Source: Curtobacterium sp. MR_MD2014 (GTDB taxonomy: Bacteria > Actinomycetota > Actinomycetes > Actinomycetales > Microbacteriaceae). Taken from it: DNA of 64,000 nt. Each line of letters begins with the position of its first letter. Position 1 is the stretch's first letter. The notes under the pieces were generated by a model. It was not told the DNA's origin. It saw nothing but the letters and a program-made list of their open reading frames with translations, and ran no database searches. Shown here in pieces: positions 5,701 through 62,839 of the stretch. Both the position numbers and the translations under genes were made by a program. The DNA is taken from assembly GCF_000772085.1 (NCBI RefSeq), contig NZ_CP009755.1, positions 1,302,001 through 1,366,000 of the forward strand, in the 5' to 3' direction.

Positions 5701-5728
5701 CGCGGGCGGCCGGAGTCGGACCACGGAA

Positions 5729-38411: not shown

Positions 38412-38663
38412 GCGCGGTACCCGGCCCTGCCGGGCGTACCTGGCCCTGCCGGGCGTGCCTGGTCGTTCCGGGCGTACCCGGCCCTGCGAGGCGTACCTGG
38501 TCGTTCCGGGCGTACCCGGCCCTGCGAGGCGTACCTGGTCGTTCCGGGCATGCCTGGTCGGTTCGGGCGTACTTGGTCGTTCCGGGCGTACCTGGTCGTC
38601 CTGGTCCACCAGGTACGCCCGTTCCCGCAAGGCATCCCACCCGTTCTGGGAAGGAACGGGCGC
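38412..38663. repeat. 19-bp tandem array B with inverted tail module
   Basis: About ten 19-bp units (38412-38602), consensus GGGCGTACCTGGTCGTTCC, alternating with a GGGCGTACCCGGCCCTGCG type. They are followed by the inverted copy ACCAGGTACGCCC (38608-38620) and a tail with GGGAAGGAACGGGCGC (38648-38663). GCCCGTTCC (38617-38625) and GGAACGGGC (38653-38661) can pair. The same inverted copy and tail, exactly 40 bp apart, recur at 62784-62839. No coding signal. Confidence 0.85.
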
Positions 38664-38700
38664 ACGGAACGGGTGTCGGCGATCGACGCACGCATGCACG

Positions 38701-38748
38701 GACGGACGGGAGGCGCGGTCCGGGCCGGCACCGCGCCTCCCGTCCGTC
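38701..38748. terminator. GGGAGG-family hairpin (copy f)
   Basis: 19-bp perfect stem beginning GACGGACGGGAGGCGCGGT, with a 10-nt loop. It lies 290 bp beyond the permease stop, after array B, and before the glycosyltransferase promoter. Confidence 0.65.
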
Positions 38749-39045
38749 GCATGGTCGCGCTGGCGGCCCTGGCGGCCCTGGCGGCCCTGGTGGTGCCGGC
38801 GGCGCTGGTTGCGCTGGTGACGCGGGGCGGTGCCGGCCGAAGCGGCGGGCGTGCCCCCCGTGCGGGAAACCGCGCGCGGTCCCGCGATGCCGCACCGCGC
38901 TGCGTGATGCCGCACACAACCGCCAGGACCCCCCGTTCGGGTGTCGGCGGCCTGCGGGATCTCTCGTACCGTCGTCCCGACCGACCGGACCCCCGACAGC
39001 GCCCGACCCGACGGAGCGCTGGTCCGGAAGGAACGAAGGACTGCC
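38749..39045. other. Leader region of the glycosyltransferase operon with 9-bp repeats
   Basis: 38762-38793 holds four near-identical CTGGCGGCC units (9 bp). After that there is a 250-bp stretch without other repeats; CTCGTACCGTCGTCCCG at about 38964 and AAGGAACGAAGGA just before the ATG are the only recognisable signals. A promoter is expected here. Confidence 0.45.
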
Positions 39046-41481
39046 ATGCCCGATCCGTCTGCCGGCGCACCGACGCGCCGTCGCCAGTGGGGTGCCGAGC
39101 GCCGGACCCGTCCGCTCGACACCCTGCACGCACGCCCCTCCGACCGGAAGCTCGTCTCCGGTCGCGTGGCGATCATCCTGACCGTCGCCTTCTGGCTGGC
39201 GTACGTCGTCTACACCGTGATCCGCCAGTTCCTCGACTACGGCACCGAGAGCTTCCGCTTCACCACCGAGGCGATCTCGTACCTCGTCGTCGTCACCTTC
39301 CTGACCTTCTCCGCGCTCATGCACCTGGTGGCCCGCCAGGGTGCGATGGAGCGGTTCGCGAGCCACGTGCGGGTCCCGCGCGCCGAGCTCGACCGACACT
39401 TCGCCTCCGGCCACGAGGCGCCGATGACCGTCCTCGTCCCGAGCTACGCCGAGGAGCCGGACGTCGTCGCGACCACGCTCTGGTCGGCAGCGCTCCAGGA
39501 GTACCCGTCCCTGCGCGTCGTCCTGCTCGTCGACGACGCGCCGTTCCCGACCGACCCGGCGACGCTCGACAAGCTGGAGCGCACGCGCGCGGTCGCGGAC
39601 CGCATCCAGGCGCAGCTCGAGGTCCCCTCGCGCCGGTTCCAGGAAGCGCTCTTCTCGGCCGAGGTCGAGGCGGACGCTGCACCGTTCGCCAGCACGCACG
39701 CGCTCCGGACCCTCGTCGAGCACCACCGCTGGGCCGACGCGTGGCTCCGCCGGAACGCCCGGGAGCACGAGGTCGCCGACCACGTCGACCGGTTCTTCCA
39801 CGACCAGGTGCTCGTCGGGCTCGCCGACGAGTTCCGGCTGACCGCCGAGGCCCTCGAAGCGGCCATCGCCGACGCCGTCGCCCTCGGTCAGGACTTCAGC
39901 GAGGTGACCTCGGCGCGGGCGCTCGAGCTGCAGCGCCGTCTCGCCTGGACCTTCACGGCGGAACTGACCACGTTCGAGCGGAAGCGGTACGTGAACCTCT
40001 CCGACGAGGCCAACAAGGCGATGAACCTCAATGCCTACATCGGCCTGATGGGCGGGGCGTACGCGTTCGACGAGACCGCGTCCGGGACCGTCCTGCGCAC
40101 CGTGGACGACGCCGACGCGGCCGACCTCGTGGTCCCGGCGTCGGACTACCTCCTGACGCTCGACGCCGACTCCGTCCTGCTCCGCGACTACTGCCTGCGC
40201 CTGGTCTACTTCCTCGAGCAGCCGGAGAACGCCCGGGTCGCCGTGACGCAGACCCCGTACTCGTCCTTCCGCGGCGCTGCCACGCGCATCGAGCGGCTCG
40301 CGGGGGCCACCACCGACATCCAGCACATCCTCCACCAGGGGATGTCCCGGTACGACGCGACGTTCTGGGTCGGGGCGAACGCCGTCATCCGCACCCAGGC
40401 GCTCCGTGACATCGAGGAGGTCGAGACCGTCGGCGGCTTCGAGGTGAAGCGCTACGTCCAGGACCGCACCGTGATCGAGGACACCGAGTCGAGCGTCGAC
40501 CTCGGCATGCACGGCTGGACGCTCGTCAACTACCCGGAGCGGCTCTCGTACAGTGCCACGCCGCCGGACTTCGGGTCGCTCGTCGTCCAGCGCCGCCGCT
40601 GGGCGAACGGCGGCCTCCTCATCCTGCCGAAGTACGTCCGCCAGGTCCGTGAGCGCCGGGCACGAGGCGAGCGGGTCGGTCTCGTCGAGATGGCGCTGCG
40701 CGTCAACTACATGGCGTCGATCACCTGGGCGTCGTTCGGGCTCGTCTTCCTGCTCGCGTACCCGTACGACTCGCGGCTGCTCAGCCCGATGGTGCTGCTC
40801 GCGGCGCTGCCCTACTTCTGGCTGCTGTCGAGCGACCTGCGGTACTGCGGCTACAAGCGCACGGACGTCTTCCGCATCTACGGCTTCAACCTCATCCTCA
40901 CGCCGGTGAACGTCGCGGGCGTGCTCAAGAGCATCCAGCAGGCCCTCACGGCGAAGAAGATCCCGTTCGCGCGGACGCCCAAGGTGCGGGACCGCACGGC
41001 CTCGCCGGCGCTCTACGTCCTCGCGCCCTACGCGATCGTCGCCTTCTCGGTCTTCACCTTCGTCCGCGACTACGGCGCGCAGAACTGGGGGAACGCGGTC
41101 TTCGCCGCCTTCAACGCGCTCCTCGCCACCTACGCGATCGTCGCCTACATCGGCGTGTGGAACTCCGTGGTCGACGTCTGGCTGTGGGCCACGCGCTGGA
41201 TGTACTACGACCCGTCGGCGCGCGCAGCCCGTCGTGCCGCTCGTCGTACCGCTCGTGCGGCCGCCCGTGCCGACCGTCGGCGCGGACGTCGTCGCGGCGG
41301 CGTCCGCCCGGTCCCGGAGCCCGTCCTCGAGGACTGGCACGCGGTCCTGTACTTCGGACACGGCGGCGGCAACCTGCCCGTCCGGCACGACGCCGACGTC
41401 GTCGGGGCGGCGGGCGCACGTGCCACCGCGTCCGCCCAGGCCGACGCGACCGGCCCGCGCCAGGAACGGAGCGCAGCCTGA
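39046..41481 (+). CDS. Membrane GT2 glycosyltransferase, cellulose/chitin synthase-like
   Basis: 811 residues, ATG 39046 with GAAGGA upstream. Two N-terminal membrane helices (about 40-58, 76-96), a cytoplasmic GT-A domain and four to six C-terminal helices (about 550-745). Processive GT2 motifs: VPSYAEEPD (about 130), LTLDADS (DxD, about 370), the acceptor-site IEDTESS (about 475) and QRRRWANGG (Q-x-x-R-W, about 514). Between the donor-binding VDDAP (about 165) and NKAMNLN a helical insertion of roughly 150 residues is unusual. The basic tail is rich in Arg/Ala. It probably synthesises and exports a beta-linked polysaccharide; a secreted GH18-like enzyme overlaps downstream. Confidence 0.9.
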   Translation: MPDPSAGAPTRRRQWGAERRTRPLDTLHARPSDRKLVSGRVAIILTVAFWLAYVVYTVIRQFLDYGTESFRFTTEAISYLVVVTFLTFSALMHLVARQGAMERFASHVRVPRAELDRHFASGHEAPMTVLVPSYAEEPDVVATTLWSAALQEYPSLRVVLLVDDAPFPTDPATLDKLERTRAVADRIQAQLEVPSRRFQEALFSAEVEADAAPFASTHALRTLVEHHRWADAWLRRNAREHEVADHVDRFFHDQVLVGLADEFRLTAEALEAAIADAVALGQDFSEVTSARALELQRRLAWTFTAELTTFERKRYVNLSDEANKAMNLNAYIGLMGGAYAFDETASGTVLRTVDDADAADLVVPASDYLLTLDADSVLLRDYCLRLVYFLEQPENARVAVTQTPYSSFRGAATRIERLAGATTDIQHILHQGMSRYDATFWVGANAVIRTQALRDIEEVETVGGFEVKRYVQDRTVIEDTESSVDLGMHGWTLVNYPERLSYSATPPDFGSLVVQRRRWANGGLLILPKYVRQVRERRARGERVGLVEMALRVNYMASITWASFGLVFLLAYPYDSRLLSPMVLLAALPYFWLLSSDLRYCGYKRTDVFRIYGFNLILTPVNVAGVLKSIQQALTAKKIPFARTPKVRDRTASPALYVLAPYAIVAFSVFTFVRDYGAQNWGNAVFAAFNALLATYAIVAYIGVWNSVVDVWLWATRWMYYDPSARAARRAARRTARAAARADRRRGRRRGGVRPVPEPVLEDWHAVLYFGHGGGNLPVRHDADVVGAAGARATASAQADATGPRQERSAA

Positions 41482-43079
41482 TGTCGACGACGAGACGACT
41501 CTCCCCGGTCCGGGTCACCATCGCGGTCGTGGTCGCCGCCGCCGTCGCCGTCGCCGGGTACGCCGGCTTCGACCGCTGGCACTCGGCGCAGGCGACCGAA
41601 CGGCAACCAGCGTGGTTCGCCGCCTACACCGACGTCACCGCGACCCCGGTCTTCGCGTTCGAGGACGTCAAGTCGGCCAAGGGACGCAACGTCATGCTGT
41701 CCTTCGTCGTCGCCGACCACGACGACGCCTGCTCGCCGACCTGGGGCTCGTACTACTCGCTGCAGGGTGCGGCGGACCAGCTCGACCTCGACCGCCGTGT
41801 CGCCCGTCTGCAGCAGCAGCACGGCGAGGTCGGGGTGTCGTTCGGCGGCCTGGCGAACGACGAGCTCGCCACCACCTGCACGAAGGCGTCCGACCTGCTG
41901 GGTGCCTACCGGCAGGTCGTGCAGCGCTACGACCTGTCGACCGTCGACTTCGACGTCGAGGGCGACGACCTCACGAACCGCGCTGCGGGGGAGCGGCGTG
42001 CGAAGGCGGTGGCGGCGCTCCAGGACGAGCGCCGGGCCGCCGGTCACCCGCTCGCGGTGTGGCTCACCCTGCCGGCCGCGCCCTCGGGGCTGACGTCCGA
42101 CGGGACCACCGCGGTCGCGCAGTTCCTCGCCGCCGGCGTGGACCTCGCCGGGGTGAACGCGATGACGATGGACTACGGCGAGGCCAAGGGGTCGAGCCAG
42201 AGCATGTACTCGGCGTCGGTGCAGGCGCTGCAGGAGGTCCAGCGACAGCTCGGTGTCCTGTACCAGCGCGCGGGCACGCCCCTCGGTGACGGCACCCTCT
42301 GGCACAAGGTCGGGGCGACGCCCATGATCGGGCAGAACGACGTCCGTGACGAGGTGTTCTCGCTCAGCGATGCCCGGAAGCTCAACGCCTGGGCGCGCGA
42401 CCGCGGGCTGGGGCGCATGTCGATGTGGTCGCTCAACCGTGACACCACGTGTGGGTCGAACTACGTGAACCTGTCGACCGTCTCGAACTCGTGCTCCGGC
42501 GTCGACCAGGACGGACTGCTCTTCGCCGACGTGCTCGGCAAGGGGTTCGGCGGCGGGATCGTCGCGGCGGCCTCCGACGTCACGGAGGCCGAGCCCTCCG
42601 CCACCGAGCAGCCCACCGACGACCCGAAGACCAGTCCCTACCCGGTCTGGGACCAGGACGCGTCCTACCTCGAGGGCACGAAGGTGGTGTGGCACCGCAA
42701 CGTCTACGAGGCGAAGTGGTGGACGTCGGGCGACCTGCCGGACGATCCGGTGCTCAGCGCGTACGAGACGCCGTGGCAGATCATCGGCCCGGTCCTGCCG
42801 GGGGAGAAGCCCGTGGAACCGCTGACGCTGCCCGACGGGACCTACGCCGCGTGGTCGGGGACGAAGCAGTACGACACGGGCGCCCGCGTCCTGTTCCACG
42901 GCATCCCGTACCAGTCGAAGTGGTGGAACACCGGCGACAGCCCCGAGGCGTCCACGAGCGACCCGGACGGGTCGCCCTGGGTCCGTCTGAAGGATGCCGA
43001 GGTGCGTCGGATCCTCGACGGGCTCGCCTCGGGCGAGCCGGCGCCGACCGCCACCGCGACGGCGACGCCGGCTCCGTGA
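41481..43079 (+). CDS. Secreted GH18-like glycosidase with two CBM5/12 chitin-binding modules
   Basis: 532 residues, ATG 41481 overlapping the synthase stop (TGATG), so translation is coupled. One hydrophobic segment (12-30) acts as signal or anchor. The GH18 barrel has VDFDVEG (about 155-161), the D-x-D-x-E catalytic motif, followed by AMTMDYGEA. Two C-terminal modules (about 386-435 and 455-500) contain NVYEAKWWTSGD and PYQSKWWNTGD, the AKWW signature of CBM5/12. It likely cleaves or trims a chitin/PNAG-like polymer at the surface. Coupling with the synthase suggests a role in the same polymer's release or length control; this is inference. Confidence 0.9.
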   Translation: MSTTRRLSPVRVTIAVVVAAAVAVAGYAGFDRWHSAQATERQPAWFAAYTDVTATPVFAFEDVKSAKGRNVMLSFVVADHDDACSPTWGSYYSLQGAADQLDLDRRVARLQQQHGEVGVSFGGLANDELATTCTKASDLLGAYRQVVQRYDLSTVDFDVEGDDLTNRAAGERRAKAVAALQDERRAAGHPLAVWLTLPAAPSGLTSDGTTAVAQFLAAGVDLAGVNAMTMDYGEAKGSSQSMYSASVQALQEVQRQLGVLYQRAGTPLGDGTLWHKVGATPMIGQNDVRDEVFSLSDARKLNAWARDRGLGRMSMWSLNRDTTCGSNYVNLSTVSNSCSGVDQDGLLFADVLGKGFGGGIVAAASDVTEAEPSATEQPTDDPKTSPYPVWDQDASYLEGTKVVWHRNVYEAKWWTSGDLPDDPVLSAYETPWQIIGPVLPGEKPVEPLTLPDGTYAAWSGTKQYDTGARVLFHGIPYQSKWWNTGDSPEASTSDPDGSPWVRLKDAEVRRILDGLASGEPAPTATATATPAP

Positions 43080-43107
43080 CGACGCACCTCGTGATCCGGT
43101 CCGGCCT

Positions 43108-43147
43108 GGAGGCACGGTGCGGGTCCGCCCCGTGCCTCCCGTCCGTC
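43108..43147. terminator. Degenerate GGGAGG-family hairpin (copy g) after the glycosidase gene
   Basis: GGAGGCACGG pairs with CCGTGCCTCC; the outer GACG part of the left arm is lost while the right arm keeps CGTCCGTC. It lies 30 bases past the glycosidase stop. Confidence 0.6.
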
Positions 43148-43269
43148 GGCTGGGTCACGGCGGTGTGTTCGCTGTGCGCGTGCTCCTGAGTTCTCCCCAG
43201 CCCCGTTCGGGGCTCCCGCGAGGTCACCCGTTTCCGATACGCTGGTGCGCCAAGAGGAGGAGGTCCACG

Positions 43270-43749
43270 ATGCCAGAGCCAGTGGTCCCGCAGCCGGGTG
43301 GTCAGAAGACTCCGGAACAGCGGCTGGTCGACACGACCCTGACCTTCAGCATGGACATGGGAGCGGCCCTGACGGCCGAGTCCGGTGTCTCGACCGAGGA
43401 GCGCGAGGCGATCAACGCCCTGCCCTCGGGTTCGGCGTTGCTGGTGGTCCGGCGTGGTCCGAACGTCGGCGCGCGGTTCCTCCTCGACTCCGACGTCACG
43501 ACGGCCGGTCGGCACCCCGCTGCCGACATCTTCCTCGACGACGTGACGGTGTCGCGGAAGCACGCGCAGTTCCTGCGCCACGGCACGGCCTTCAGCGTCA
43601 AGGACAACGGGTCGCTGAACGGCACCTACTTCGACGGCGTACGCATCGACGAGGCACTCCTGACCGACGGCGCCGAGGTGCAGGTCGGCAAGTTCCGCCT
43701 CACGTTCTACGCATCCCGGGTCGACCTGGCGCGCCTGGCGACCGCGTAG
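43270..43749 (+). CDS. garA: FHA-domain regulator of the GarA/OdhI type
   Basis: 159 residues, ATG 43270 with GGAGGAGG. The C-terminal FHA domain is very close to mycobacterial GarA: GSALLVVRRGPNVGARFLLD, AGRHPAADIFLDDVTVSRKH, GSLNGTYFDG, VQVGKFRLTF. In relatives unphosphorylated GarA/OdhI inhibits 2-oxoglutarate dehydrogenase, and phosphorylation of an ETTSVFR threonine by PknB/PknG causes intramolecular binding. Here the N-terminal segment reads DTTLTFSMD, so the phosphorylation site is modified although TT is retained. It is followed by ftsR, the conserved neighbour. Confidence 0.9.
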   Translation: MPEPVVPQPGGQKTPEQRLVDTTLTFSMDMGAALTAESGVSTEEREAINALPSGSALLVVRRGPNVGARFLLDSDVTTAGRHPAADIFLDDVTVSRKHAQFLRHGTAFSVKDNGSLNGTYFDGVRIDEALLTDGAEVQVGKFRLTFYASRVDLARLATA

Positions 43750-44453
43750 TGGCTGCGCGGTCCGCCGCAGCCCGGGCCGGTGCTGCGGTACCGGACCTGC
43801 TCACCATCGGGCAGGTCATCGCCCGGTTGAAGCCCGACTTCCCCGACCTGTCGAGCTCGAAGCTCCGCTTCCTCGAGGAACGCGAGCTCGTCACGCCGAT
43901 CCGCACCGCCAGCGGGTACCGGAAGTTCTCGGCGGCCGACGTCGAGCGGCTCCGGATCGTGCTCGGTCTGCAGCGTGACCACTACCTGCCGCTCAAGGTC
44001 ATCAAGGACTACCTCGCCGATCTCGACGCGGGGCGCGAGCCCGTCCTGCCCGGCGGCGGTGACGCCCCGAGACCGTCGATCCTCGGCCGCGAGCGTCGGT
44101 ACACGCGGGACGAGACCGTCCGCGCTGCAGGTGCCTCGCCGATGCTGCTGACCGACGCGGTCTCGGCGTCGCTGCTGCCCGCGGCCGACACCTACGGCGA
44201 CGACGCCGTGGCGGTGCTCAAGGCCCTCGTCGAACTGCAGCGCACCGGCATCGAGCCGCGGCACCTGCGCACCATGCGCGGTGTCGTCGAGCGCGAGGTC
44301 GGCTTGATCGAGTCGGCCCTCATGCCGGTGTCCCGTCGAGGTGACGCCACCTCGCGGGCCAAGGCGACGGAGCTCGCGCGCGAGATCGCCGGGCAGCTCG
44401 AGGTCGTCCGGTCGAACCTGATCCGCACGGCGATCGGCCGACTCGACGCATGA
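43749..44453 (+). CDS. ftsR: MerR-family regulator FtsR
   Basis: 234 residues, GTG 43749, overlapping the garA stop by one base. N-terminal MerR HTH: LTIGQVIARLKPDFPDLSSS, KLRFLEERELVTPIRTASGYRKFS. The adjacent C-terminal domain has no obvious metal-binding cysteines. Relatives (Rv1828 in M. tuberculosis, FtsR in Corynebacterium) activate ftsZ and other division genes. The garA-ftsR order is conserved. A DUF151 nuclease gene that normally follows (Rv1829) is missing; a 199-bp gap separates it from the next MerR gene. Confidence 0.9.
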   Translation: MAARSAAARAGAAVPDLLTIGQVIARLKPDFPDLSSSKLRFLEERELVTPIRTASGYRKFSAADVERLRIVLGLQRDHYLPLKVIKDYLADLDAGREPVLPGGGDAPRPSILGRERRYTRDETVRAAGASPMLLTDAVSASLLPAADTYGDDAVAVLKALVELQRTGIEPRHLRTMRGVVEREVGLIESALMPVSRRGDATSRAKATELAREIAGQLEVVRSNLIRTAIGRLDA

Positions 44454-44652
44454 CCGGCGACCGGTCGGCGTCCGGACCGGGGCTGCGCCCTGTCGACCGT
44501 CGGTGGTCGGGGCGTATCCTCGACACGCCGGACGCGCCGGTGCGGATGTGCCGGGCAGACCGTGTCCGAGTCGCTACCGTGGACCTCGGAACAACTCTCA
44601 ACCCGTCGTTGAACCTTCTGGTGGGAGCTCGAACGTCGTGGAAGGCATGCAC

Positions 44653-45213
44653 ATGAGTGGGACTGACACCCCCGGTACCGAGTCCGAGATGACTCGGTAC
44701 GACCTCGGCCTGCTCTTCACCGACGGCCTCCCCGAGCACGACGAGCAGAACGGCTACCGCGGCACCGTCGCCGCACGCGCAGCCGGCATCTCGTACCGAC
44801 AGCTCGACTACTGGGCCCGCACCGAGCTCGTGCAGCCGACCATCCGCGGCGCTGCCGGGTCGGGGTCGCAGCGGCTCTACGGCTTCCGGGACATCCTGGT
44901 GCTCAAGCTCGTCAAGCGACTCCTCGACACCGGGATCTCGCTGCAGCAGATCCGCACCGCCGTGAACCAGCTCCGCGAGTCCGGCGTGTCCGACCTCGCC
45001 CAGACGACGCTGATGTCCGACGGGGCGTCGGTCTACCTGTGCACCTCGGACGACGAGGTCATCGACCTGGTGTCCCGCGGCCAGGGCGTGTTCGGCATCG
45101 CGGTCGGCAAGGTCCTGCGCGAGGTCGAGAGCTCCCTGGTCGAGCTCGACGCCACCCCTGCTGCGGACCCCGCCGACGAGCTCGCCGCCCGCCGGGCGAA
45201 CCGCGCGTCCTAG
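44653..45213 (+). CDS. MerR-family regulator (Rv1830-like)
   Basis: 186 residues from ATG 44653, with GGAAGG before it; a start two codons earlier is possible. HTH: VAARAAGISYRQLDYWARTE, then IRGAAGSGSQRLYGFRDILV, followed by a conserved dimerisation helix GISLQQIRTAVNQLRESGVS. Relatives lie near garA in mycobacteria (Rv1830). The target is unknown. Its own promoter is in the 199-bp gap after ftsR. Confidence 0.9.
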   Translation: MSGTDTPGTESEMTRYDLGLLFTDGLPEHDEQNGYRGTVAARAAGISYRQLDYWARTELVQPTIRGAAGSGSQRLYGFRDILVLKLVKRLLDTGISLQQIRTAVNQLRESGVSDLAQTTLMSDGASVYLCTSDDEVIDLVSRGQGVFGIAVGKVLREVESSLVELDATPAADPADELAARRANRAS

Positions 45214-45547
45214 CCGTTCCTCGCCCTCCCGCTCGTCCGGCTCCGCCGGAGAGTCGTCGGTGCGTCGTCCGGTGCCCTCGACCGGGCCAGATCTGTCACG
45301 CTCGCGCCGTTCGACGACGTCCCTGACCCACTCGGCGTCGCACCAGCTGCGTGTCGTGCCCACTCGGCACTCGGCAGACCCCGCCCGGCGGCCCACAGCC
45401 CGCGTGTCCTGCCCACTCGGCGTTCGATCATTGACCTTCGGCTGCTGAGACCCGAGCCCCGGCCCCCGGGACGCGAGCCCCGACCCCGGGCCCCGACTTC
45501 CCGCGCGGATGGTTCCGGTCGCGCGAACTGCCGCGAGTGTCCGTCTC

Positions 45548-45598
45548 GGTCGCACGACTTGCCGCTCAGCTCCCGTGCGGACGGCATGTCGTGCGACC
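45548..45598. repeat. GGTCGCACGAC palindrome, copy 1
   Basis: GGTCGCACGACTTGCCG at the left and a complementary CGGCATGTCGTGCGACC at the right enclose CTCAGCTCCCGTGCGGA. A near-identical palindrome, including the loop, occurs at 56611-56661. Confidence 0.7.
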
Positions 45599-45770
45599 AG
45601 GACCGTCGACGACTGCATCGAGTCGAGCGTGCGACATCTCGGCCGTTCAGCGGATGACGGGCCCGAACGGTCGAGGGCTCGCCTCGTACGCAGCGGCTTC
45701 AGTGCGCGCCGATCCGAGCGAGCACGACATGCCGCCGGGTCGTCACGGCGCGGGCGGGATCCGTCGTCCG

Positions 45771-45890
45771 GGGACCTCGACCGTGACAAATGGTGCGCGC
45801 TCGACGGCCGGCCCAGCGCGAAGCCGGTCCGGGACCTCGACCGTGACAGATGTTGCACGCTCGACGGCCGGCCCAGCGAGGAGCCGGCCG
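45771..45890. repeat. Two-copy 60-bp direct repeat
   Basis: GGGACCTCGACCGTGACA starts at 45771 and again at 45831, exactly 60 bases later. The copies share CTCGACGGCCGGCCCAGCG and differ at about six positions. The block lies 50 bases from the minus-strand parA stop. Confidence 0.8.
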
Positions 45891-45939
45891 GGGAGCAGCC
45901 GGTCCGGGGGAGGAAGCCGGCCCGGAGAGGCGGCAGCGC

Positions 45940-46752
45940 CTAGGCGGCGCCGCCCTCGGCGTACGGACCGATCTTGCCCGTGCGCATGATGCGCTCGAGC
46001 AGCTGGTCGAAGTTCTTCGCCATCTCCTGCGCCGACTCGCCGGGCCACACGTGCAGGGGCTTCGCCGCGCCCTGCGCCTGCTGCAGCGACGTGCGCTCCG
46101 GCAGCTGCGGCGAGAGCACGAGCGGGCCGAACATGTCCCGGAGTTCCTTGATGCGGAACTGGTGCTCGAGCGACTGCACGCGCGCCCGGTTCACGATGAT
46201 GCCGAGCGGCTGCAGGCGGGGGGAGAGCCCACGGCGGATCTCCTCGATCGCACGGAGCGCGCGGTCCGCGGCGGCGACGGAGAACAGGCCCGGCTCGGTG
46301 ACCACGGTCACGCGGTCCGAGGCAGCCCAGGCGGTGCGGGTCAGGGCGTTGAGCGACGGGGCGCAGTCGATGAGGACCAGCTCGTAGTCCTGCTCGACGT
46401 TCGCCAGCGCCTCCTCCAGCTTCCAGATGTCCCGGATGGAGGGGTGGGGGCCGTCGAAGTTGATGGCGGACGGCGACCCGACGAGCACGTCGACCTTGCC
46501 CTGCGAGCCCTTCGTCCACCCGGACGGGGCGATCGCCTGGCGGACGATCTTCTCCTTCGGGTTCTCGAGGACGTCGGCGACGTTGAGGTGGCCGGAGATG
46601 TCGATGTCGAGGCCGGTCGAGACGTCGGACTGCGGGTCGAGGTCCACCACCAGCGTGCGCAGTCCCTTGGCGAACGCGGCCGATGTCAGGCCGAGCGTCA
46701 CCGTCGTCTTGCCGACACCACCCTTGAGGGAGCTCACGCTGAGTACATGCAC
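45940..46752 (-). CDS. ParA/Soj-family ATPase, no ParB partner in sight
   Basis: 270 residues, ATG 46752. Deviant Walker A KGGVGKTT (10-17), Walker A' VVDLDPQSDVS, and Walker B LVLIDCAPSLN are intact. PLGIIVNRAR and FRIKELRDMFG correspond to the ParA switch regions. No parB or parS lies nearby, so it is an orphan ParA of the PldP/MinD-like or partition-associated type, possibly positioning a protein cargo rather than DNA. Divergent from pyc with a 60-bp gap. Confidence 0.9.
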   Translation of the reverse strand: MHVLSVSSLKGGVGKTTVTLGLTSAAFAKGLRTLVVDLDPQSDVSTGLDIDISGHLNVADVLENPKEKIVRQAIAPSGWTKGSQGKVDVLVGSPSAINFDGPHPSIRDIWKLEEALANVEQDYELVLIDCAPSLNALTRTAWAASDRVTVVTEPGLFSVAAADRALRAIEEIRRGLSPRLQPLGIIVNRARVQSLEHQFRIKELRDMFGPLVLSPQLPERTSLQQAQGAAKPLHVWPGESAQEMAKNFDQLLERIMRTGKIGPYAEGGAA

Positions 46753-46812
46753 GGTGAGCCACGTTACCGCCAGTAAGGTTGTGACACCTCAACCCGGGCT
46801 GAAAGGGACGTC

Positions 46813-50223: not shown

Positions 50224-50224
50224 C

Positions 50225-51043: not shown

Positions 51044-51098
51044 TCCGAGAGCGCGTCCGCGACCCCTCGGCGGGTCGCGCCCCGCGAGCAGACGACAC

Positions 51099-51145: not shown

Positions 51146-51154
51146 CCGTCGTCC

Positions 51155-53002: not shown

Positions 53003-53235
53003 GGTTGACTCCCTTGTCGGCCGGTGCGATACGAGGACGCCTCGACGATGAGACGTCACCGCCAGCATACGGGCGGAGCGGCACCGGACGGACGGGCCGC
53101 GGTGCGGTTCGCAGCACCTCGTCAGCCGTCGGGCGTCGTCGGCCGGCTCCGTGCGGGCAAGCGGTGCCCGGCGCCCACCTCGGTCGCGTTGCCGGCGTTC
53201 GGCGTCGCCACGCGGAAACGGTAGGCTCGACCCTC

Positions 53236-54189: not shown

Positions 54190-54230
54190 GGTCACCCCGA
54201 CGGTACGCGCGTCCCGAACTGGAGTCGACG

Positions 54231-54953: not shown

Positions 54954-55098
54954 CGGGCGACCGCCGTCGTCGCCCCCGCGTCACGCGGGAGCGGCGGGTC
55001 GGGCGCGGACGGTAGGATCTGAGGACTCCGGCCCCGGCCGGACCGGCCTGCGCGCAGGCCTCCCGCTCCCGCCCGACCCAGAACACCGAGGTACCGCC

Positions 55099-56484
55099 TT
55101 GATCGAGTCGACCGACGTCGTCGCCCTGCAGGATCCGGACGTGATCGAGGGTCTCGACCACTGGCGCACCCTGCCGATCAAGCAGCAGCCGACCTGGCCC
55201 GACCGCGCCGCGGCCGAGGCGGCGTCGGCCGAGATCGCGACGCTGCCGCCGCTCGTCTTCGCGGGCGAGGTCGACAAGCTCCGTGACCGGCTCGCCGCAG
55301 CGGCGCAGGGCAGGGCGTTCCTGCTGCAGGGCGGCGACTGCGCCGAGACCTTCGCCGGAGCCACGGCGGACTCGATCCGTGACCGCGTGAAGACCATCCT
55401 CCAGATGGCCGTCGTGCTCACCTACGGTGCCTCGACACCGGTGATCAAGATGGGACGCATGGCGGGGCAGTTCGCCAAGCCGCGGTCGAGCGACTTCGAG
55501 ACGCGCGGCGACGTGACGCTGCCGGCGTACCGCGGCGACATCGTGAACGGCTACGACTTCACCCCGGAGAGCCGCCAGGCCGACCCCCGCCGCCTGGTGC
55601 AGGGCTACCACACGGCCGCGTCGACGCTGAACCTGGTCCGTGCCTTCACGCAGGGCGGGTTCGCCGACCTGCGGCAGGTGCACTCGTGGAACAAGGGCTT
55701 CGCGTCGAACCCGGCGAACGCCCGCTACGAGCACCTCGCGAAGGAGATCGACCGCGCGATCCGCTTCATGGACGCCTGCGGAGCCGACTTCGAAGCGCTG
55801 AAGCACACCGAGTTCTACGCCTCGCACGAGGGGCTCCTCATGGACTACGAGCGGCCGATGACCCGCATCGACTCGCGCTCCGGTCTCGCCTACGACACCT
55901 CCGGCCACTTCATCTGGATCGGCGAGCGGACCCGCGACCTCGACGGCGCCCACGTCGACTTCCTGTCCCGCGTGCGGAACCCGATCGGTGTGAAGCTCGG
56001 CCCGACGACGACCGTGGACGACATGAAGGCCCTGGTCGACACGCTCGACCCGGAGCGCGAGCCCGGTCGTCTGACGTTCATCACCCGGATGGGTGCGGGC
56101 AGGATCCGCGACGAGCTGCCGAAGCTGCTCGAGGCGATCAAGGGCATGGACGCGAACCCGCTCTGGGTGACCGACCCGATGCACGGCAACGGCCTGACGA
56201 CCCCGACGGGCTACAAGACCCGTCGCTTCGACGACGTCGTGGACGAGGTCCTCGGCTTCTTCGAGGCGCACCGCCAGGTCGGCACCTACCCGGGCGGCAT
56301 GCACGTCGAGCTCACCGGTGACGACGTCACCGAGTGCCTGGGCGGCTCCGAGCAGATCGACGAGGCGACCCTGGCGACGCGCTACGAGTCGCTGTGCGAC
56401 CCGCGGCTCAACCACATGCAGTCGCTCGAGCTCGCCTTCCTGGTGGCGGAGGAGCTGAGCGCCCACCCCTACCAGCGGCCGTAG
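55099..56484 (+). CDS. aroG: Class II 3-deoxy-D-arabino-heptulosonate 7-phosphate synthase
   Basis: 461 residues, with TTG 55099 as start (GAGGTACCGCC upstream; no closer ATG/GTG fits). First step of the shikimate pathway: PEP plus erythrose-4-phosphate. Plant-type class II motifs: LLQGGDCAETF, VIKMGRMAGQFAKPRS, DYERPMTRIDSRSG, GPTTTVDDMKALVDTL and WVTDPMHGNG. A TAGGATCT -10 box lies about 80 bases upstream. In M. tuberculosis the same enzyme (Rv2178c) neighbours pknL, as here. Confidence 0.96.
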   Translation: MIESTDVVALQDPDVIEGLDHWRTLPIKQQPTWPDRAAAEAASAEIATLPPLVFAGEVDKLRDRLAAAAQGRAFLLQGGDCAETFAGATADSIRDRVKTILQMAVVLTYGASTPVIKMGRMAGQFAKPRSSDFETRGDVTLPAYRGDIVNGYDFTPESRQADPRRLVQGYHTAASTLNLVRAFTQGGFADLRQVHSWNKGFASNPANARYEHLAKEIDRAIRFMDACGADFEALKHTEFYASHEGLLMDYERPMTRIDSRSGLAYDTSGHFIWIGERTRDLDGAHVDFLSRVRNPIGVKLGPTTTVDDMKALVDTLDPEREPGRLTFITRMGAGRIRDELPKLLEAIKGMDANPLWVTDPMHGNGLTTPTGYKTRRFDDVVDEVLGFFEAHRQVGTYPGGMHVELTGDDVTECLGGSEQIDEATLATRYESLCDPRLNHMQSLELAFLVAEELSAHPYQRP

Positions 56485-56500
56485 TCGCGACCGCACGCCG

Positions 56501-56540
56501 GACGGGAGGCGCGGTGCCAGCCGGCACCGCGCCTCCCGTC
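56501..56540. terminator. GGGAGG-family hairpin (copy i) between convergent aroG and pknL
   Basis: GACGGGAGGCGCGGTGCC pairs perfectly (18 bp) with its complement around an AGCC tetraloop. It starts 17 bases after the DAHP synthase stop. Confidence 0.75.
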
Positions 56541-56610
56541 GGTCCGCTCGTGCGTCCGCTCGTTGCCCACCCGTCCTGCCCGGCTCCGCTCGCCCGTCCT
56601 GCCCGGTTCC

Positions 56611-56693
56611 GGTCGCACGACCTGCCGCTCACGTTCCGCGCGGACGGCACGTCGTGCGACCGCAGCGACCGCCGACGGCACGTCGTGCGACCG
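56611..56693. repeat. GGTCGCACGAC palindrome, copy 2, plus extra half-site
   Basis: 56611-56661 repeats the palindrome of 45548-45598 (GGTCGCACGACCTGCCG ... CGGCACGTCGTGCGACC) with the same loop phrase. A third half-site, GACGGCACGTCGTGCGACC, follows at 56675-56693. It lies in the 250-bp gap between convergent aroG and pknL. Confidence 0.7.
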
Positions 56694-56734
56694 GAACCGG
56701 CGAGCGGTCGAGCAGCCGAGCGGCCGCCTGGCGG

Positions 56735-58786
<2,052 letters not shown>

Positions 58787-58889
58787 TCTACGAAGGGCTG
58801 CCGGTACGGTCCGACCTGACGCACCGACCGTGACCCAATCTCGATCTCGAGGATGAGTCGGCTGTCCGGCCGACCAGACGGGCGGGACC

Positions 58890-60155
58890 TCAGAGCGAGG
58901 CCAGCAGGGCGCGCGCGGTCTGCTCCCACTTCGCGTACTCGTTCGGGTACGCGGAGACCTGGACCGCCTGGGCGGCGTCGGTCAGGGCCATCGACGACCA
59001 CCCACGCACGCCGAGCAGGCCGCGGGTCTTGCCGGGGTTGCCCACGAAGAACAGTTCGGCGGCGGTGGCCGGGTCCTGCAGTGCTGCCGCCGTGCCCCAG
59101 CCCTGGCTCGGACGCTGCTGGAACAGGCCGACGGAGTCGCGGTCGCCGTGCGACAGGTTGCGCAGGCTCGACTCCTGCAGAGCCGCTGCGAGGGCGATCA
59201 CGATGCCGCGGTCGGGGACGCCGAGGGTCCGGCCGACGCTGACGATGGTGGCCGCGTTGCGCCGCTGCTCACCGGTCAGCTCGACGCCGTTGACGCTGCC
59301 GACGGCCGTGGTCACGGCACCACCGGTCGGGGTGGTCGTCGGCTTCGAGGTCGCAGCGGGCAGCACGAGGGTCTTCCCTGCGTAGATCGTGCTCGTGTAG
59401 CTGAGGCCGTTCGCCGCGAGGAGGGCCTTCACCGACACCCCGTGCTTCGCAGCGATCGCCCCGATGGTGTCGCCGGCGACGATCTTCACGCTCGACGCCC
59501 GGGCAGGTGCGGCCGGCGCGGTGCTCACGGCAGGCGCCGGCTTCGCGGCGGGTGCCGTCCCGGCGCGGGGGATGGTCAGGGTCTGGCCCGGGTAGATCAG
59601 CGAGCGCTGCGAGAGGTTGTTCGCGGCGAGGATCGCCGAGGTCGACACGCCGACGCGGGCGGCGATGCCGGACACGGTGTCGCCCGACTTCACGTGGTAG
59701 CTGCCGCTCGTGCTCGACGTCGCGGGTGCTGCTGCGGGGGCGGCGGGTGTCGAGGACAGGTGCAGCGTCTGCCCGGGGTGGATGATCGTGTTCCAGCCGA
59801 GGCCGTTGCGGACCAGGACCTCCTGCGCCGAGAGCCCGAAGCGCGCGGCGATGCCCGAGACGGTGTCGCCCTGACGCACCGTGTAGGTGGTGGGGGCCTT
59901 CGACACCGCGGCGACCGTGGTGACGGTGGTGGTCGACGGGCGGGCGACGGCGGTGCCGAACACCGGGCGCTGGCCCACGTTCCGGTCCTCGTCCACGTGC
60001 CGCTTCTTCGCGGCGTCGTCGTGCCGGGGCTCGGCGTGCGCCACCGGGCCGGTGAGGCCGGCGGTCACGGCGATCGTGCCCGCGAGGACGATGGGCATGG
60101 TGGCGAACCGGGCGGATCGAGCGCGCCGGGCGGCGTCGTCTGCAGCGTTGTCCAC
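58890..60155 (-). CDS. Secreted LysM peptidoglycan-binding protein with transglycosylase-like domain
   Basis: 421 residues from GTG 60155, with an ACAGGAGAC ribosome site. Signal sequence with hydrophobic segment 20-39 and VAHA cleavage site. Three LysM repeats at about 90-134, 152-196 and 222-266 (YTVRQGDTVSGIAARFGLSA is typical). The C-terminal part (about 290-421) resembles lytic transglycosylase-like domains, with ALQESSLRN containing a candidate catalytic Glu328 and SVGLFQQRPSQGWG. It binds the wall and probably cleaves or remodels peptidoglycan. It converges on pknL, which reads the same ligand. Confidence 0.9.
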   Translation of the reverse strand: MDNAADDAARRARSARFATMPIVLAGTIAVTAGLTGPVAHAEPRHDDAAKKRHVDEDRNVGQRPVFGTAVARPSTTTVTTVAAVSKAPTTYTVRQGDTVSGIAARFGLSAQEVLVRNGLGWNTIIHPGQTLHLSSTPAAPAAAPATSSTSGSYHVKSGDTVSGIAARVGVSTSAILAANNLSQRSLIYPGQTLTIPRAGTAPAAKPAPAVSTAPAAPARASSVKIVAGDTIGAIAAKHGVSVKALLAANGLSYTSTIYAGKTLVLPAATSKPTTTPTGGAVTTAVGSVNGVELTGEQRRNAATIVSVGRTLGVPDRGIVIALAAALQESSLRNLSHGDRDSVGLFQQRPSQGWGTAAALQDPATAAELFFVGNPGKTRGLLGVRGWSSMALTDAAQAVQVSAYPNEYAKWEQTARALLASL

Positions 60156-60317
60156 GGGTTGTCTCCTGTCCTGGGTGAGCCGTGCGCGGGAGCGGGTACT
60201 CACAGGTGGCTCCACGCTGACATGGCGTGATTCCCAAGTCAACCAGAGAGCCGCGTGTTGCGCGTGTGACTCGTGTGATCAGCGTGACGGCACGACGCAG
60301 GCCGGTGCTCTGGCAAC

Positions 60318-60683
60318 ATGGGGCGGGTGAGTGATGGACCCACCGACGACACGACCCTCTCCGAGCGCTGGCTGACGGTGCCCGACCTCGTGGACCTGCT
60401 CGGGGTGAGCCCCGGGCGCATCCACCGCCTGTTCGAGCAGAAGACGCTGCTGGCTGCCCGCGTGGGCGGCGTGCTGCGGGTGCCGAGCGAGTTCTTCGAC
60501 GGCTCCGAGCCGATGCCGGAGCTGCGCGGCACGCTGATCGTCCTCGGTGACAACGGGTTCTCCGACGACGAGGCGGTCCGCTGGATGCTCTCCGAGGAGC
60601 CCGCACTCCGCACCTCGCCGATCGCCGCGCTGCGCGCCGGCCGCAAGGCCGAGGTGCGCCGCGTCGCACAGTCCCTGCTCTGA
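60318..60683 (+). CDS. Rv2175c-family winged-helix DNA-binding protein (PknL substrate)
   Basis: 121 residues from ATG 60318; GTG 60327 is an alternative start. SERWLTVPDLVDLLGVSPGR is the HTH, and IHRLFEQKTLLAARVGGVLR and LRGTLIVLGDNGFSDDEAVR match M. tuberculosis Rv2175c. There PknL phosphorylates an N-terminal Thr and abolishes DNA binding; this protein has TDDTTLSE at the corresponding place. The target genes are unknown. It lies divergent from the LysM gene and near pknL. Confidence 0.9.
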   Translation: MGRVSDGPTDDTTLSERWLTVPDLVDLLGVSPGRIHRLFEQKTLLAARVGGVLRVPSEFFDGSEPMPELRGTLIVLGDNGFSDDEAVRWMLSEEPALRTSPIAALRAGRKAEVRRVAQSLL

Positions 60684-60774
60684 GCCCGGGAGCCGACCCG
60701 GCGCCCTGGACCGGAGACCCGTCCCGGCGGGCTGGCTCGCGCAGCAGGAGCCGCCCCGGTGAGGACGATCTGGT

Positions 60775-60822
60775 GACGGACGGGAGGCCCGTGGCGGTGT
60801 CGCCACGGGCCTCCCGTCCGTC
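60775..60822. terminator. GGGAGG-family hairpin (copy j) between convergent genes
   Basis: A perfect 22-bp stem with a GTGT loop, starting GACGGACGGGAGGCCCG. It lies between the Rv2175c-like gene and the polyprenyl synthase stop. Confidence 0.75.
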
Positions 60823-60836
60823 GTCGTGGTCGGCGT

Positions 60837-61955
60837 CTAGGCGACGCGGCTGCTGACCGTGTCGGCCAGCGACAGCAGCTGGTCGCGCGCCGACGGCGTC
60901 AACGGCGCGGCCTCGAGCGCTGCCTTCGCGCGCTGCACGTGCCGGTCGATCGAGCGCTCGACGGCGGCGACCGCCCCGGACTCGGTGAGCGTGGCGCGCA
61001 GCATCTGCACCTGCTCCTCGTCGAGGTCGGGGTCGCCGAGCAGCTCGTCGAGCAGTTGCCTCGGGCCGGGCGGGAGCGCCTTGCGGGCCGAGGCGATGAG
61101 GACGGTGCGCTTGCCCTCGCGGAGGTCGTCGCCGGCGGGCTTGCCGGTGACCTCGGGGTCGCCGAACACACCGAGCACGTCGTCGCGGAGCTGGTACGCG
61201 ACGCCGAGCGGCAGGCCGAAGGACCGCAGGCCCTCGAGCTGCGCCTCCGAGGCGCCGGCGACCAGGGCTCCGATGACGAGCGGCGCCTCGATCGAGTACT
61301 TCGCCGACTTGAAGACGATGACCCGCTGTGCCCGCACCAGGTGCTCGGTCTCGTCGATCGTCGGCCAGGCCGTCTCCTCGTGCACGTCGAGGTACTGCCC
61401 CGCGGTCACGTCGAGCCGCATCGTGTGGAACTCCTGGCGGACGATGCGTGCGCGCGCCGGGTCGAGGAGCGCGAGCCCCTCGTCGAAGACGGAGTCGCTC
61501 AACGAGAGCAGGACGTCCCCGAGCAGCAGCGCCGAGTTCGTGCCGTACAGCGAGCGGTCGCCGACCCAGCCGGACTCCTCGTGCAGGGACTCGAAGCGCC
61601 GGTGCGCGGCGGGACGACCACGACGGGTGTCCGAGCGGTCCATGATGTCGTCGTGCACCAGGGCGGCGGCGTGGAAGATCTCGAGCGCGGCGGCCACCGT
61701 GACGACGGCCTCGGCCGTGGTCTGGCGGGAGCCCTCGGCGAGGGGGTCGAAGGACCCCGAGCGGCCCGCCACGGACTGCCATCCCCAGTAGCAGAACAGC
61801 GCTCGGAAGCGCTTGCCGCCGGACAGCAGGTCACGGGCGTACCGGTCGAACGGCGCGAGGTCCGGGCTGATCGCGAGGAGCCGATCACGCTGCTCGTCGA
61901 GTGCCCGTCCGACCCGTGCCGAAACGAGGTCCACTAATCGCGTACTCTCAGCCAC
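60837..61955 (-). CDS. Polyprenyl diphosphate synthase (trans-isoprenyl)
   Basis: 372 residues, ATG 61955. First Asp-rich motif LVHDDIMDRSDTRRGRP (102-106 DDIMD), second DDVLGVFGD (about 256). GGKRFRALFCYWGW is the IPP-binding segment. It extends allylic diphosphates by IPP; the residues 4-5 before the first DDxxD (HAAALV) do not fix the chain length. Its position between the PknL cluster and the division/cell wall cluster matches Rv2173 (idsA2), so a menaquinone- or geranylgeranyl-type product is likely. Confidence 0.93.
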   Translation of the reverse strand: MAESTRLVDLVSARVGRALDEQRDRLLAISPDLAPFDRYARDLLSGGKRFRALFCYWGWQSVAGRSGSFDPLAEGSRQTTAEAVVTVAAALEIFHAAALVHDDIMDRSDTRRGRPAAHRRFESLHEESGWVGDRSLYGTNSALLLGDVLLSLSDSVFDEGLALLDPARARIVRQEFHTMRLDVTAGQYLDVHEETAWPTIDETEHLVRAQRVIVFKSAKYSIEAPLVIGALVAGASEAQLEGLRSFGLPLGVAYQLRDDVLGVFGDPEVTGKPAGDDLREGKRTVLIASARKALPPGPRQLLDELLGDPDLDEEQVQMLRATLTESGAVAAVERSIDRHVQRAKAALEAAPLTPSARDQLLSLADTVSSRVA

Positions 61956-62080
61956 GACTCCTACCCTAGTGGAGCGGTCGAGTCATAGAATCGGTCCACT
62001 TCAGCGATGCCACAACCCGGCGGCAGCGCGGCACACCAGCGGTCGTCAGACAGCATCCCCAGGAACAAGAGGGAAACGAG

Positions 62081-62482
62081 ATGCCACTCTCGGAGCAAGA
62101 GCAGCGACTCCTCGAAGAGATGGAGCGGAGCCTCTACCAGAACGACTCCGACTTCGTGGCGCGTGTCACGCGCCGCCAGGGACGCGCGAGTTACACGTCC
62201 ATCACGATCGGTGTGCTCGGTGCCCTCGTGGGGATCGCCATCGTCATCGTGGCGCTCGTCGTGAAGCAGCCGTGGCTCGGGCTGCCGGGCTTCGTGGTGA
62301 TGCTCGCCGGTGTGCTCTACGCGCTGCGCCCAGGGATGCGGATGTCGAAGTCCGGGGCGAAGGCGCCGCGGGCGAAGGGGCAGTCCGCGGGTCGGCCGTC
62401 GCGGCCGTCCTCCTCCGGTGGCTCCTTCATGGACCGCATGAACGAGCGCTGGGACAAGCGCAACGACCCGGGGCAGCAGTAG
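62081..62482 (+). CDS. DUF3040 membrane protein
   Basis: 133 residues, ATG 62081 with GGAAACGAG upstream. The N-terminal MPLSEQEQRLLEEMERSLYQ is the DUF3040 signature, followed by two membrane helices (about 43-62 and 66-83) and a basic, Ser-rich C-terminus. Homologue of M. tuberculosis Rv2169c, in the same place relative to mraZ and the polyprenyl synthase. Function unknown. A strong UUCG-loop terminator follows. Confidence 0.92.
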   Translation: MPLSEQEQRLLEEMERSLYQNDSDFVARVTRRQGRASYTSITIGVLGALVGIAIVIVALVVKQPWLGLPGFVVMLAGVLYALRPGMRMSKSGAKAPRAKGQSAGRPSRPSSSGGSFMDRMNERWDKRNDPGQQ

Positions 62483-62510
62483 CCGCACCGCACGCCCTCC
62501 ACACGCCTCC

Positions 62511-62540
62511 ACGGGGCCGGTCCTTCGGGACCGGCCCCGT
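62511..62540 (+). terminator. Terminator after DUF3040 gene
   Basis: ACGGGGCCGGTCC, loop TTCG, then GGACCGGCCCCGT: a 13-bp perfect stem with a stable UUCG tetraloop, 28 bases after the stop. Rho-independent-like, without a T-tract. Confidence 0.85.
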
Positions 62541-62660
62541 CGTCGTGTCCGGTGTCGGGGTCGTGCTCGTGGCCGCTGCTCCGCGCCGTCCGCCCGCCAG
62601 TGACACCCGCCCGTGGCACCCGTGCCCGCCCTCGCACCCCGTGCTCCTGCCGCTGTCCCT

Positions 62661-62839
62661 GGCGAATCCGGGCGTGCCTGGTCGAACCGGGCGTCCCGGG
62701 CTCGCGGGTGCCGGCGCGCTCGAGTGTGCCTGGTGGAACCGGGCATAGCTGGTGGAGCCGGGCGTACCGGGTCGAACGGAACCATCAGGTATGCCCGATT
62801 CCGCCTGCCATCGCGGGTGTGATGGGAAGGAACGGGCGC
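62661..62839. repeat. 19-bp tandem array C with inverted tail module
   Basis: A diverged copy of array B in the 738-bp gap 62483-63220. Units GGGCGTGCCTGGTCGAACC (62670-62688), AGTGTGCCTGGTGGAACC, GGGCATAGCTGGTGGAGCC and GGGCGTACCGGGTCGAACG (to 62778). Then the inverted copy ATCAGGTATGCCC (62784-62796) and the tail GGGAAGGAACGGGCGC (62824-62839), identical in sequence and at the same 40-bp spacing as in array B. Confidence 0.82.

Follow-up and report, generated by a model that had tools for sequence, protein, structure and literature searches.

Results

The window, by which we mean the whole 64,000-nucleotide stretch of chromosome analysed here, carries two copies of a composite repeat. In the first, a plus-strand direct array of nine 19-bp units (38432..38602, with words at 38432, 38451, 38470, 38489, 38508, 38527, 38546, 38565 and 38584) is followed on the minus strand by an inverted copy, ACCAGGTACGCCC (38608..38620), placed 24 bp from where the last direct unit starts, and on the plus strand by a fixed 16-bp tail, GGGAAGGAACGGGCGC (38648..38663), which lies 40 bp from the inverted copy's start. 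The core, measured from last unit to tail, occupies 83 bp (38580..38662, plus strand). The second element comprises a plus-strand direct array at 62670..62778 (words at 62670, 62689, 62722, 62741 and 62760, on a 19-bp grid apart from a single irregular step of 33 bp), an inverted copy that reads ATCAGGTATGCCC at this locus (62784..62796, minus strand) and the identical 16-mer tail (62824..62839, plus strand), again 40 bp from the start of the inverted copy. On re-reading the coordinates, the arrangement described in an earlier note, with 19-bp direct units, an inverted copy and 40 bp to an identical 16-mer at both loci, was confirmed throughout; its statement that the unit sequences differ between the loci was not borne out, and the units are better described as one word with drift.

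The same note had counted a GGGAGG hairpin among the components of the element, which we do not uphold. The palindrome GGACGGGAGGC is a separate repeat, present at 38704..38745 and again at 62937..62978, and it starts 41 and 98 bp past the 16-mer in the two loci. Hairpins with exact arms lie near 7 of the 25 elements in this genome (four after, three before, those with changed arms being uncounted), and a composite of element and hairpin was rejected because, for the other 18, neither the 400 bp preceding the element nor the 300 bp following it contain a hairpin of this exact-arm kind. The hairpin forms a family of its own, in which 80 of 94 pairs of arm words lie 31 bp apart.

At least 25 full copies of the element are dispersed through the 3.44-Mb genome. 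The search for further copies that had been proposed found the tail 14-mer, with at most one mismatch, 29 times genome-wide compared with a single match for a reversed-pattern control, and the element is therefore not a chance arrangement. In 23 of these 29 matches an inverted copy precedes the tail by exactly 40 bp, and each of the 23 also has 24 bp between the starts of its last direct unit and its inverted copy. The two starting loci are, as first suggested, diverged copies of one element of fixed geometry. One of the remaining six matches (L044) retains units and a degraded inverted copy; five are unrelated.

This rigidity extends to other genomes. Core length is exactly 83 bp in 121 of 123 unique cores, a count that, like the conservation figures, was restricted to loci found with the sequence model because 75 loci came from a fixed-gap pattern search that itself selects for spacing; the model favours complete copies, and matches with low profile coverage were removed ahead of the core count. 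By comparison, gaps were needed in 116 of 185 pairs of downstream 60-bp flanks, a count that includes the pattern-found loci, as do those of 3'-end location and orientation, dialect by site, column pairing and arm spacing. When copies at the same site are compared across genomes (98 pairs, 27 sites), the words are 93% and 91% identical and the tail 94%, with the spacers at 68% and 72%; the word conservation is partly ascertained, since the sequence model found the copies. The number of direct units varies from 1 to about 10, many of them degraded, and at some sites the whole element is present in several copies. Such variable and decaying units might be expected of neutral tandem repeats that share common descent and have neither a present function nor a binding partner, but the near absence of indels from the cores relative to their flanks, the excess conservation of words over spacers and the joint changes of dialect described below make this explanation highly improbable.

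The element is non-coding, as had been proposed, with 3 of 140 copies overlapping a called ORF. Of 60 distinct sites, 57 lie at gene 3' ends and three in divergent gene gaps, compared with 65 of 213 gaps. No recurring gene class was seen by eye beside the elements except at orthologous sites, and no binding protein was found; in the neighbour-gene clusters, of which the start of each representative was inspected by eye, no transposase stood out. A regulon was rejected since the genes flanking the 25 sites in this genome, judged by eye from their sequences, look diverse and show no common function.

The position at gene 3' ends, where in 118 of 137 copies the upstream gene is oriented towards the array, invites the interpretation that the inverted copy and tail are transcribed as a structured RNA acting as a terminator, an mRNA stabiliser or a 3'-UTR element. 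Stable hairpins are predicted in part of the copies (folding z of the inverted-copy RNA −3.3 and −6.4, with −1.6, −1.7 and −1.9 in three others), G-C to C-G changes occur between unit and inverted copy, and in the mixed-dialect set pairing exceeds 500 of 500 shuffles, largely at the dialect columns. Outside the word, across 211 cores, column pair 0/44 pairs at 0.49 compared with 0.36 when shuffled and column pair 2/42 at 0.45 compared with 0.31. Against this, pairing among the copies of this genome alone is 80.0% against 79.4% shuffled (156 of 500 shuffles as high), which weakens the structured RNA that the earlier note had offered as one of three options. Moreover, pairing is not maintained at most of the variable stem columns beyond those of the dialects, the orientation bias at tandem sites is not significant once sites are counted singly (18 versus 10, p 0.18), and neither element reaches the gathering score of any Rfam model, the matches at element 1 all being sub-threshold. 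An RNA function would also leave unexplained why three different sequences share a 19-bp pitch, and we consider it improbable. A pseudoknot between centre loop and tail was rejected as well: the two are complementary in some copies, yet their pairing is not above shuffles.

All 75 named matches to the family fall in Curtobacterium, and the family appears to be restricted to this genus as far as searched. Its key letters form dialects (GGGC, GCGC), and unit, inverted copy and tail usually change jointly. At ten of 62 sites the dialect varies from one genome to another; at four sites of genome G000 the other dialect is found in G359, and both dialects occur within one genome in C. pusillum AA3 and in G359. 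A GCTC tail in G032 was read from four tandem copies at a single locus (L209), and the other locus read in that genome (L076) has GCAC. A model of the second dialect gave 55 matches in G017, which holds roughly 50 family copies, and 81 in G026 (both strands counted); in ten family-negative genomes it gave nothing. A conserved-tail pattern, matching 25 times in G026 (reversed control 1), stayed at chance level in 11 empty genomes, with 0 to 4 matches per genome (reversed control 0 to 2). Further dialects hidden in the empty genomes were rejected on these two results, an absence that holds at the sensitivity of the searches, as neither search would detect a word of very different sequence and the model searches scored part of the first-look candidates per genome (64, 12 or 150, by search). 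In the search that scored 64 candidates, 27 genomes of the genus carried the element and 9 were empty. Genomes with and without the family stand side by side on a tree of one gene, pyruvate carboxylase, from 46 genomes, and since G010, G023, G028 and G031 have 5 to 11 matches, presence is not strictly all-or-none.

This patchiness bears on a second option of the earlier note, a non-autonomous element, which in REPIN-like form would be copied or homed by a transposase or recombinase, with the arrays as binding ends and slippage adding 19-bp units. The dispersed copies, the adjacency of family-bearing and family-free genomes on the one-gene tree, the dialect differences at one site between close relatives and within one genome, and the multiplication of whole elements at some sites all fit such a scheme. 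However, 23 of the 25 sites in this genome are common to at least one other species, and the copies of G000 are closer to their orthologues in G359 and G015 than to their paralogues (83% versus 71%). The orthologous stretches of G359 and seven family-negative genomes showed neither a clean empty site nor a target duplication; they are too different or hold other repeats, so that no junction is readable. The IS200/IS605-type Y1 transposase family PF01797, to which RAYTs belong, has no match in the MR_MD2014 genome, the only one tested beyond controls, of which 5 of 14 match; a RAYT-driven REP was rejected accordingly. A phage or plasmid origin was likewise rejected, family 1 being unmatched in viral contigs, phages and plasmids. 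Overall, we regard mobility as rather unlikely, though a stronger contender than RNA structure.

Two further word families in the window use the same pitch. The second, with word GAGACGCCG (31190..31350), has direct words at 31190, 31209, 31228, 31247, 31266 and 31304 and inverted words at 31323 and 31342, on the direct words' 19-bp grid; the third, with word TCGAACCA (5716..5780), has its word at 5735, TCGGACCA at 5716 and inverted words at 5754 and 5773. Spacing is 19 bp in 138 of 150 among the pairs listed for the second family and in 70 of 71 for the third. Strict patterns for both gave nothing in viral contigs. The idea that repeats here follow a 19-bp pitch in general was rejected: among gaps that lack families 1 and 2, this spacing is unenriched (3/59, 3/33, 5/55 and 2/117), and three of the few 19-bp cases in those gaps are family 3. 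Without some common ruler, it is difficult to account for an identical pitch in unlike sequences, and the occurrence of at least two word families beyond the first hints at an undescribed protein that may read DNA at that spacing.

Separately, loci in G021 and G008 may represent a fourth family.

Discussion

Among the options originally offered, a protein-binding array fits our data best. We propose that the element comprises phased DNA-recognition arrays with a putative co-evolving trans-acting protein, comparable to REPINs or BIMEs, and give this reading a probability of just under one half. Its support comes from the indel-free spacing, the joint dialects, the greater conservation of words than spacers, the absence of pairing beyond shuffles in the copies of this genome, the 3'-end sites, the family-negative genomes and the recurrence of the pitch in other families. 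Set against it are the failure to find a binding protein, the flanking genes with no function in common, the dialect-mixed and low-copy genomes, and some RNA folding and pairing (0/44, 2/42) of the kind that a hairpin model predicts.

In this model, the element would code for nothing and would present an array of sites recognised as double-stranded DNA; the word bound by the protein, CGGGCGTACC here, would be about 10 bp long. The rigid 83-bp core on which the protein assembles in register would consist of words at 19-bp pitch, one or two opposite words set at a constant dyad distance, and the tail GGGAAGGAACGGGCG, while the upstream array would be free to gain or lose whole units. Such an assembly might serve domain organisation, copying, or both. 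Gene 3' ends would be the only places where arrays are useful or do no harm, and arrays at such sites would be passed on over long spans of time. A shift in protein specificity would be followed by unit, inverted copy and tail, producing dialects locus by locus, and because the change would proceed in this way some genomes would be caught with both. Conversely, loss of the protein would leave the copies to decay until the genome is empty.

A broader and more tentative possibility is that Curtobacterium harbours a class of 19-bp-lattice elements defined by pitch rather than sequence. It would include at least three families (GGGCGTACC with its dialects, GAGACGCCG and TCGAACCA), independently gained and lost, each placing direct and then inverted words in register, with a set of related recombinases or DNA-binding proteins, each serving a single word, as the common ruler that drives dialect changes.

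Given the rigid geometry, the same-site dialects and the family-free genomes, the trans-acting factor should be findable by comparison of gene content. If found, it would provide a test case for how dozens of scattered sites change together with the DNA-binding specificity of their protein.

No described family resembling the element was found in Rfam or in the part of the literature surveyed, which agrees with the earlier note, and likenesses to known systems are partial. CRISPR arrays combine a constant word with a variable spacer at fixed length, as the element does, and have adjacent cas genes, near-identical repeats and unique spacers; comparing the repeats alone, the words here are 8 to 13 bp and not near-identical, spacers are often shared within an array, and inverted copies occur. 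The iterons of plasmids P1 and F are arrays of 19-bp protein-binding direct units, and family 1 likewise has direct units of about 19 bp, but it is chromosomal, dispersed at gene ends and equipped with an inverted copy and tail. Enterobacterial BIMEs, palindromic extragenic arrays typically found at gene 3' ends, contain sites for gyrase and IHF. Family 1 would resemble them as a proposed protein-binding palindromic array in extragenic DNA at gene 3' ends; it differs in being genus-restricted, with dialects and family-free genomes, and gyrase, being universal, would not explain the empty genomes.

A further comparison is with REP and REPIN sequences. In published accounts, these are short, palindromic, dispersed intergenic repeats that occur as inverted pairs and sometimes in tandem clusters, with several families per genome and a proposed co-evolution with trans-acting RAYT transposases (PMC3116915, PMC3733652). 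A further account gives REP copy number as usually above 100 and describes BIMEs and REPs as protein-binding sites (PMC2817692). Family 1 shares with them an inverted repeat pair in extragenic space, dispersed and sometimes clustered repeats, and several sequence families in one genome. It departs from them in the missing PF01797 member, in its lower copy number, and in its ends: neither the A1 consensus nor that of 153 cores has a conserved GTAG or CGTC tag at an end, with GTAG inside the word in some second-dialect copies. Instead of two REPs in one hairpin, family 1 presents a direct array at 19-bp pitch with a fixed tail, and here three word families use that one pitch.

Results

Re-reading the sequence at the two loci of the earlier note, at window positions 38432-38663 (element 1) and 62670-62839 (element 2), recovered the same structure of direct units, inverted copy and fixed tail; we call this non-coding element, with direct words every 19 bp, family 1. 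In the genome from which the window comes (G000; one contig, 3,443,800 bases, the window spanning 1302001-1366000), a search for the 14-base tail word that tolerated one mismatch gave 29 matches, against one in the control. The geometry first described from two loci recurs at 23 of the 29 tail matches, with exactly 40 bp from the inverted copy to the tail downstream of it and exactly 24 bp from the last direct unit to the inverted copy; of the other six, one has a degraded inverted copy and five are unrelated. The further copies that the earlier note had proposed looking for do exist. A model (R1) built from sequence alone on an alignment of 24 copies (A1) gives at least 25 full copies in G000, a lower bound, since scoring covered 150 of the 5,835 first-look candidates. 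One extra copy, at 1,853,024, came from a second model (R2) built on 34 copies in a second letter form, or dialect (A3), and there are incomplete copies near 749,756 and near 609,146. Apart from end offsets neither alignment contains gaps, and the core, from last unit to tail, is 83 bp long in 121 of 123 unique cores at model-found loci. Across all loci, pattern-found ones included, neighbouring direct words are 19 bp apart in 98 of 121 cases; of the 122 direct-to-inverted distances, 109 measure 28 bp and 12 measure 47 bp.

The GGGAGG hairpin once taken as a component of the element has to be dropped, the GGACGGGAGGC palindrome at 38704-38745 and 62937-62978 being unrelated to the elements. 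It has six exact-arm copies in the 64-kb window (the others at 14748-14789, 17131-17172, 17280-17321 and 60778-60819), with arm words mostly 31 bp apart. A 149-bp near-tandem duplication at 17130-17404 contains this palindrome and a second one with GTCGCGCC arms. Elsewhere in the window, a 60-bp unit is repeated twice at 45766-45892, where our simple codon-usage script for gene calling calls no gene, and Rfam gives two ordinary motifs, a TPP riboswitch (27131-27226, minus strand) and an mraW RNA motif (63648-63746, plus strand).

With genes called by that script, 3 of the 140 family 1 copies with enough flank overlap an open reading frame; the other 137 lie in convergent (76), tandem (42 and 15 by orientation) and divergent (4) gaps. 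Counting each of 60 sites once gives 29 convergent, 18 and 10 tandem and 3 divergent. The 213 gaps used for comparison, each 120 bp or longer, comprise 62 convergent, 86 tandem and 65 divergent ones, a difference with p 1.5e-5 for divergent and p 0.008 for convergent sites. At tandem sites, again counted once, the bias towards sense orientation is not significant (18 vs 10, p 0.18).

R1 finds matches in 27 of 36 genus genomes, G000 included, and in none of the 23 genomes examined from elsewhere in the order. Among 299 genomes drawn at family level, with 12 candidates scored per genome, the 5 with matches were all Curtobacterium; 2 drawn genus genomes and 84 other genera gave none. A pattern scan over a collection with a single genome per species (84,980 species) yielded 75 stretches, every one titled Curtobacterium; these named hits are the basis for taking G000 as a probable member of that genus. 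Family 1 gave no match in the viral contigs, phages and plasmids searched. R2 found nothing in ten empty genomes (eight of the nine that are empty for R1 among the 36, plus G353 and G221), and gave 55 matches in G017 and 81 in G026, with hits on either strand included. Copy number is not simply all-or-none: four genomes (G010, G023, G028 and G031) have 5 to 11 R1 matches. On a one-gene tree, four empty genomes (G003, G008, G021 and G022) each fall inside a well-supported clade with element-bearing genomes, which implies at least four losses or gains of family 1.

Matching sites by their flanking genes showed that 23 of 25 sites in G000 are also occupied by an element in one or more other species, with 17 of 25 common to genome G359 and 19 of 25 to genome G015. 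By gene names read from the sequences rather than from Pfam, the element 1 site (permease/glycosyltransferase) is common to G359, G015 and strain ER1/6, and the element 2 site (before mraZ) to G359, G015, HSID17257 and C. caseinilyticum. Same-site cores of G000 and G359 or G015 are 83% identical (77 to 87% over nine genome pairs compared); different-site cores within one genome are 70 to 76% identical. At shared sites (98 pairs, 27 sites) the words are 93% and 91% and the tail 94% identical, whereas the spacers are 68% and 72% identical.

The dialects differ in the second letter of a four-base motif (GGGC, or GCGC in the second dialect). This letter is in agreement between unit and inverted copy for 205 of the 211 cores and between inverted copy and tail for 174. 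Exact unit/inverted/tail triples were GGGC/GCCC/GGGC in 129 cores and GCGC/GCGC/GCGC in 13; mixed ones included 7 in which GGGC units go with a GCGC tail and 3 of the reverse, the rest being other mixtures, often with changed tails. Genome G032 has an extra form (GCTC/GAGC/GCTC) in four tandem copies at a single locus. One form prevails in most genomes with several copies read, but C. pusillum AA3 is mixed and G359 has both forms; G000 has two second-dialect copies. At 10 of 62 sites both forms occur in different genomes, and four sites with the GGGC form in G000 carry the alternative form at the corresponding position in G359.

Joint changes in the 211 cores affect columns 5/39 (G-C 174, C-G 31), 11/33 and 39/79; in most of the remaining variable stem columns pairing does not exceed the shuffled level. 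Partial exceptions are columns 0/44 (0.49 vs 0.36 shuffled; 0.54 vs 0.50 with wobble) and 2/42 (0.45 vs 0.31; 0.52 vs 0.42). Pairing exceeds all 500 shuffles in the mixed-dialect set (78.5% vs 74.7%), and is 80.0% vs 79.4% in own-genome copies, where 156 of 500 shuffles were as high. Predicted folds of five copies were strong in two and moderate in three. We read the inverted copies as recognition words in opposite orientation rather than as a maintained stem, though the core may alternatively form a DNA or RNA hairpin.

Two further word families share the 19-bp pitch, which we rejected as a general trait of other repeats. Family 2 (word GAGACGCCG; window 31190-31350) has direct and inverted words on one exact 19-bp grid. 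With gaps of 4 to 24 bases permitted, 12 genomes gave 173 word pairs (reversed-pattern control, 3); among the 150 listed, 138 by eye have a pitch of exactly 19 bp, and a direct pair is followed by an inverted pair within 150 bp at ten places, always at a multiple of 19 (57, 76, 114 or 133 bp). Separate same-orientation blocks can be out of phase, with offsets of 106 and 166 bp. Family 3 (word TCGAACCA; window 5716-5780) has two direct words, one changed, and two inverted words in 19-bp steps; counted by eye, the spacing is 19 bp in 70 of 71 pairs (control, 0) and 38 bp in all 15 neighbouring direct/inverted pairs. At the loci examined, 0 of 14 family 2 and 0 of 18 family 3 arrays lie in divergent gaps. 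Both are independent of family 1, since family 2 occurs without it in G007 and G008 (the latter on word pairs with gaps of 4 to 24 bases allowed), family 3 without it in G022, and family 1 without either in G012. A possible fourth 19-bp family (ACGACAGC / GTGCGACA) lies at about 5629-6299 of locus L334 (G021), where it occupies the site of element 2 of G000, and at about 1131-1839 of locus L304 (G008). In G003, which lacks family 1, locus L328 has a different repeat (GGGTCACGA ...) at the element 2 site.

Discussion

The rigid phase of the words, their conservation between freely varying spacers, the joint change of dialect letters and the genomes lacking the family together point to a putative trans-acting DNA-binding protein that would read words on a 19-bp grid. 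Phased recognition arrays for such a protein are our best reading, at a probability of about 0.47. The mixed-dialect and low-copy genomes lowered this from 0.5, and made it slightly less improbable, at around one chance in three, that the arrays are REPIN-like, the putative factor being a transposase-like driver. The putative trans-acting protein may be either such a driver or a host nucleoid protein. One grid beneath different words suggests related putative proteins. Family 1 is unreported in the titles and abstracts of the literature surveyed, a partial coverage with most subscription papers outside it; we drew on PMC3733652, PMC3116915 and PMC8049555.
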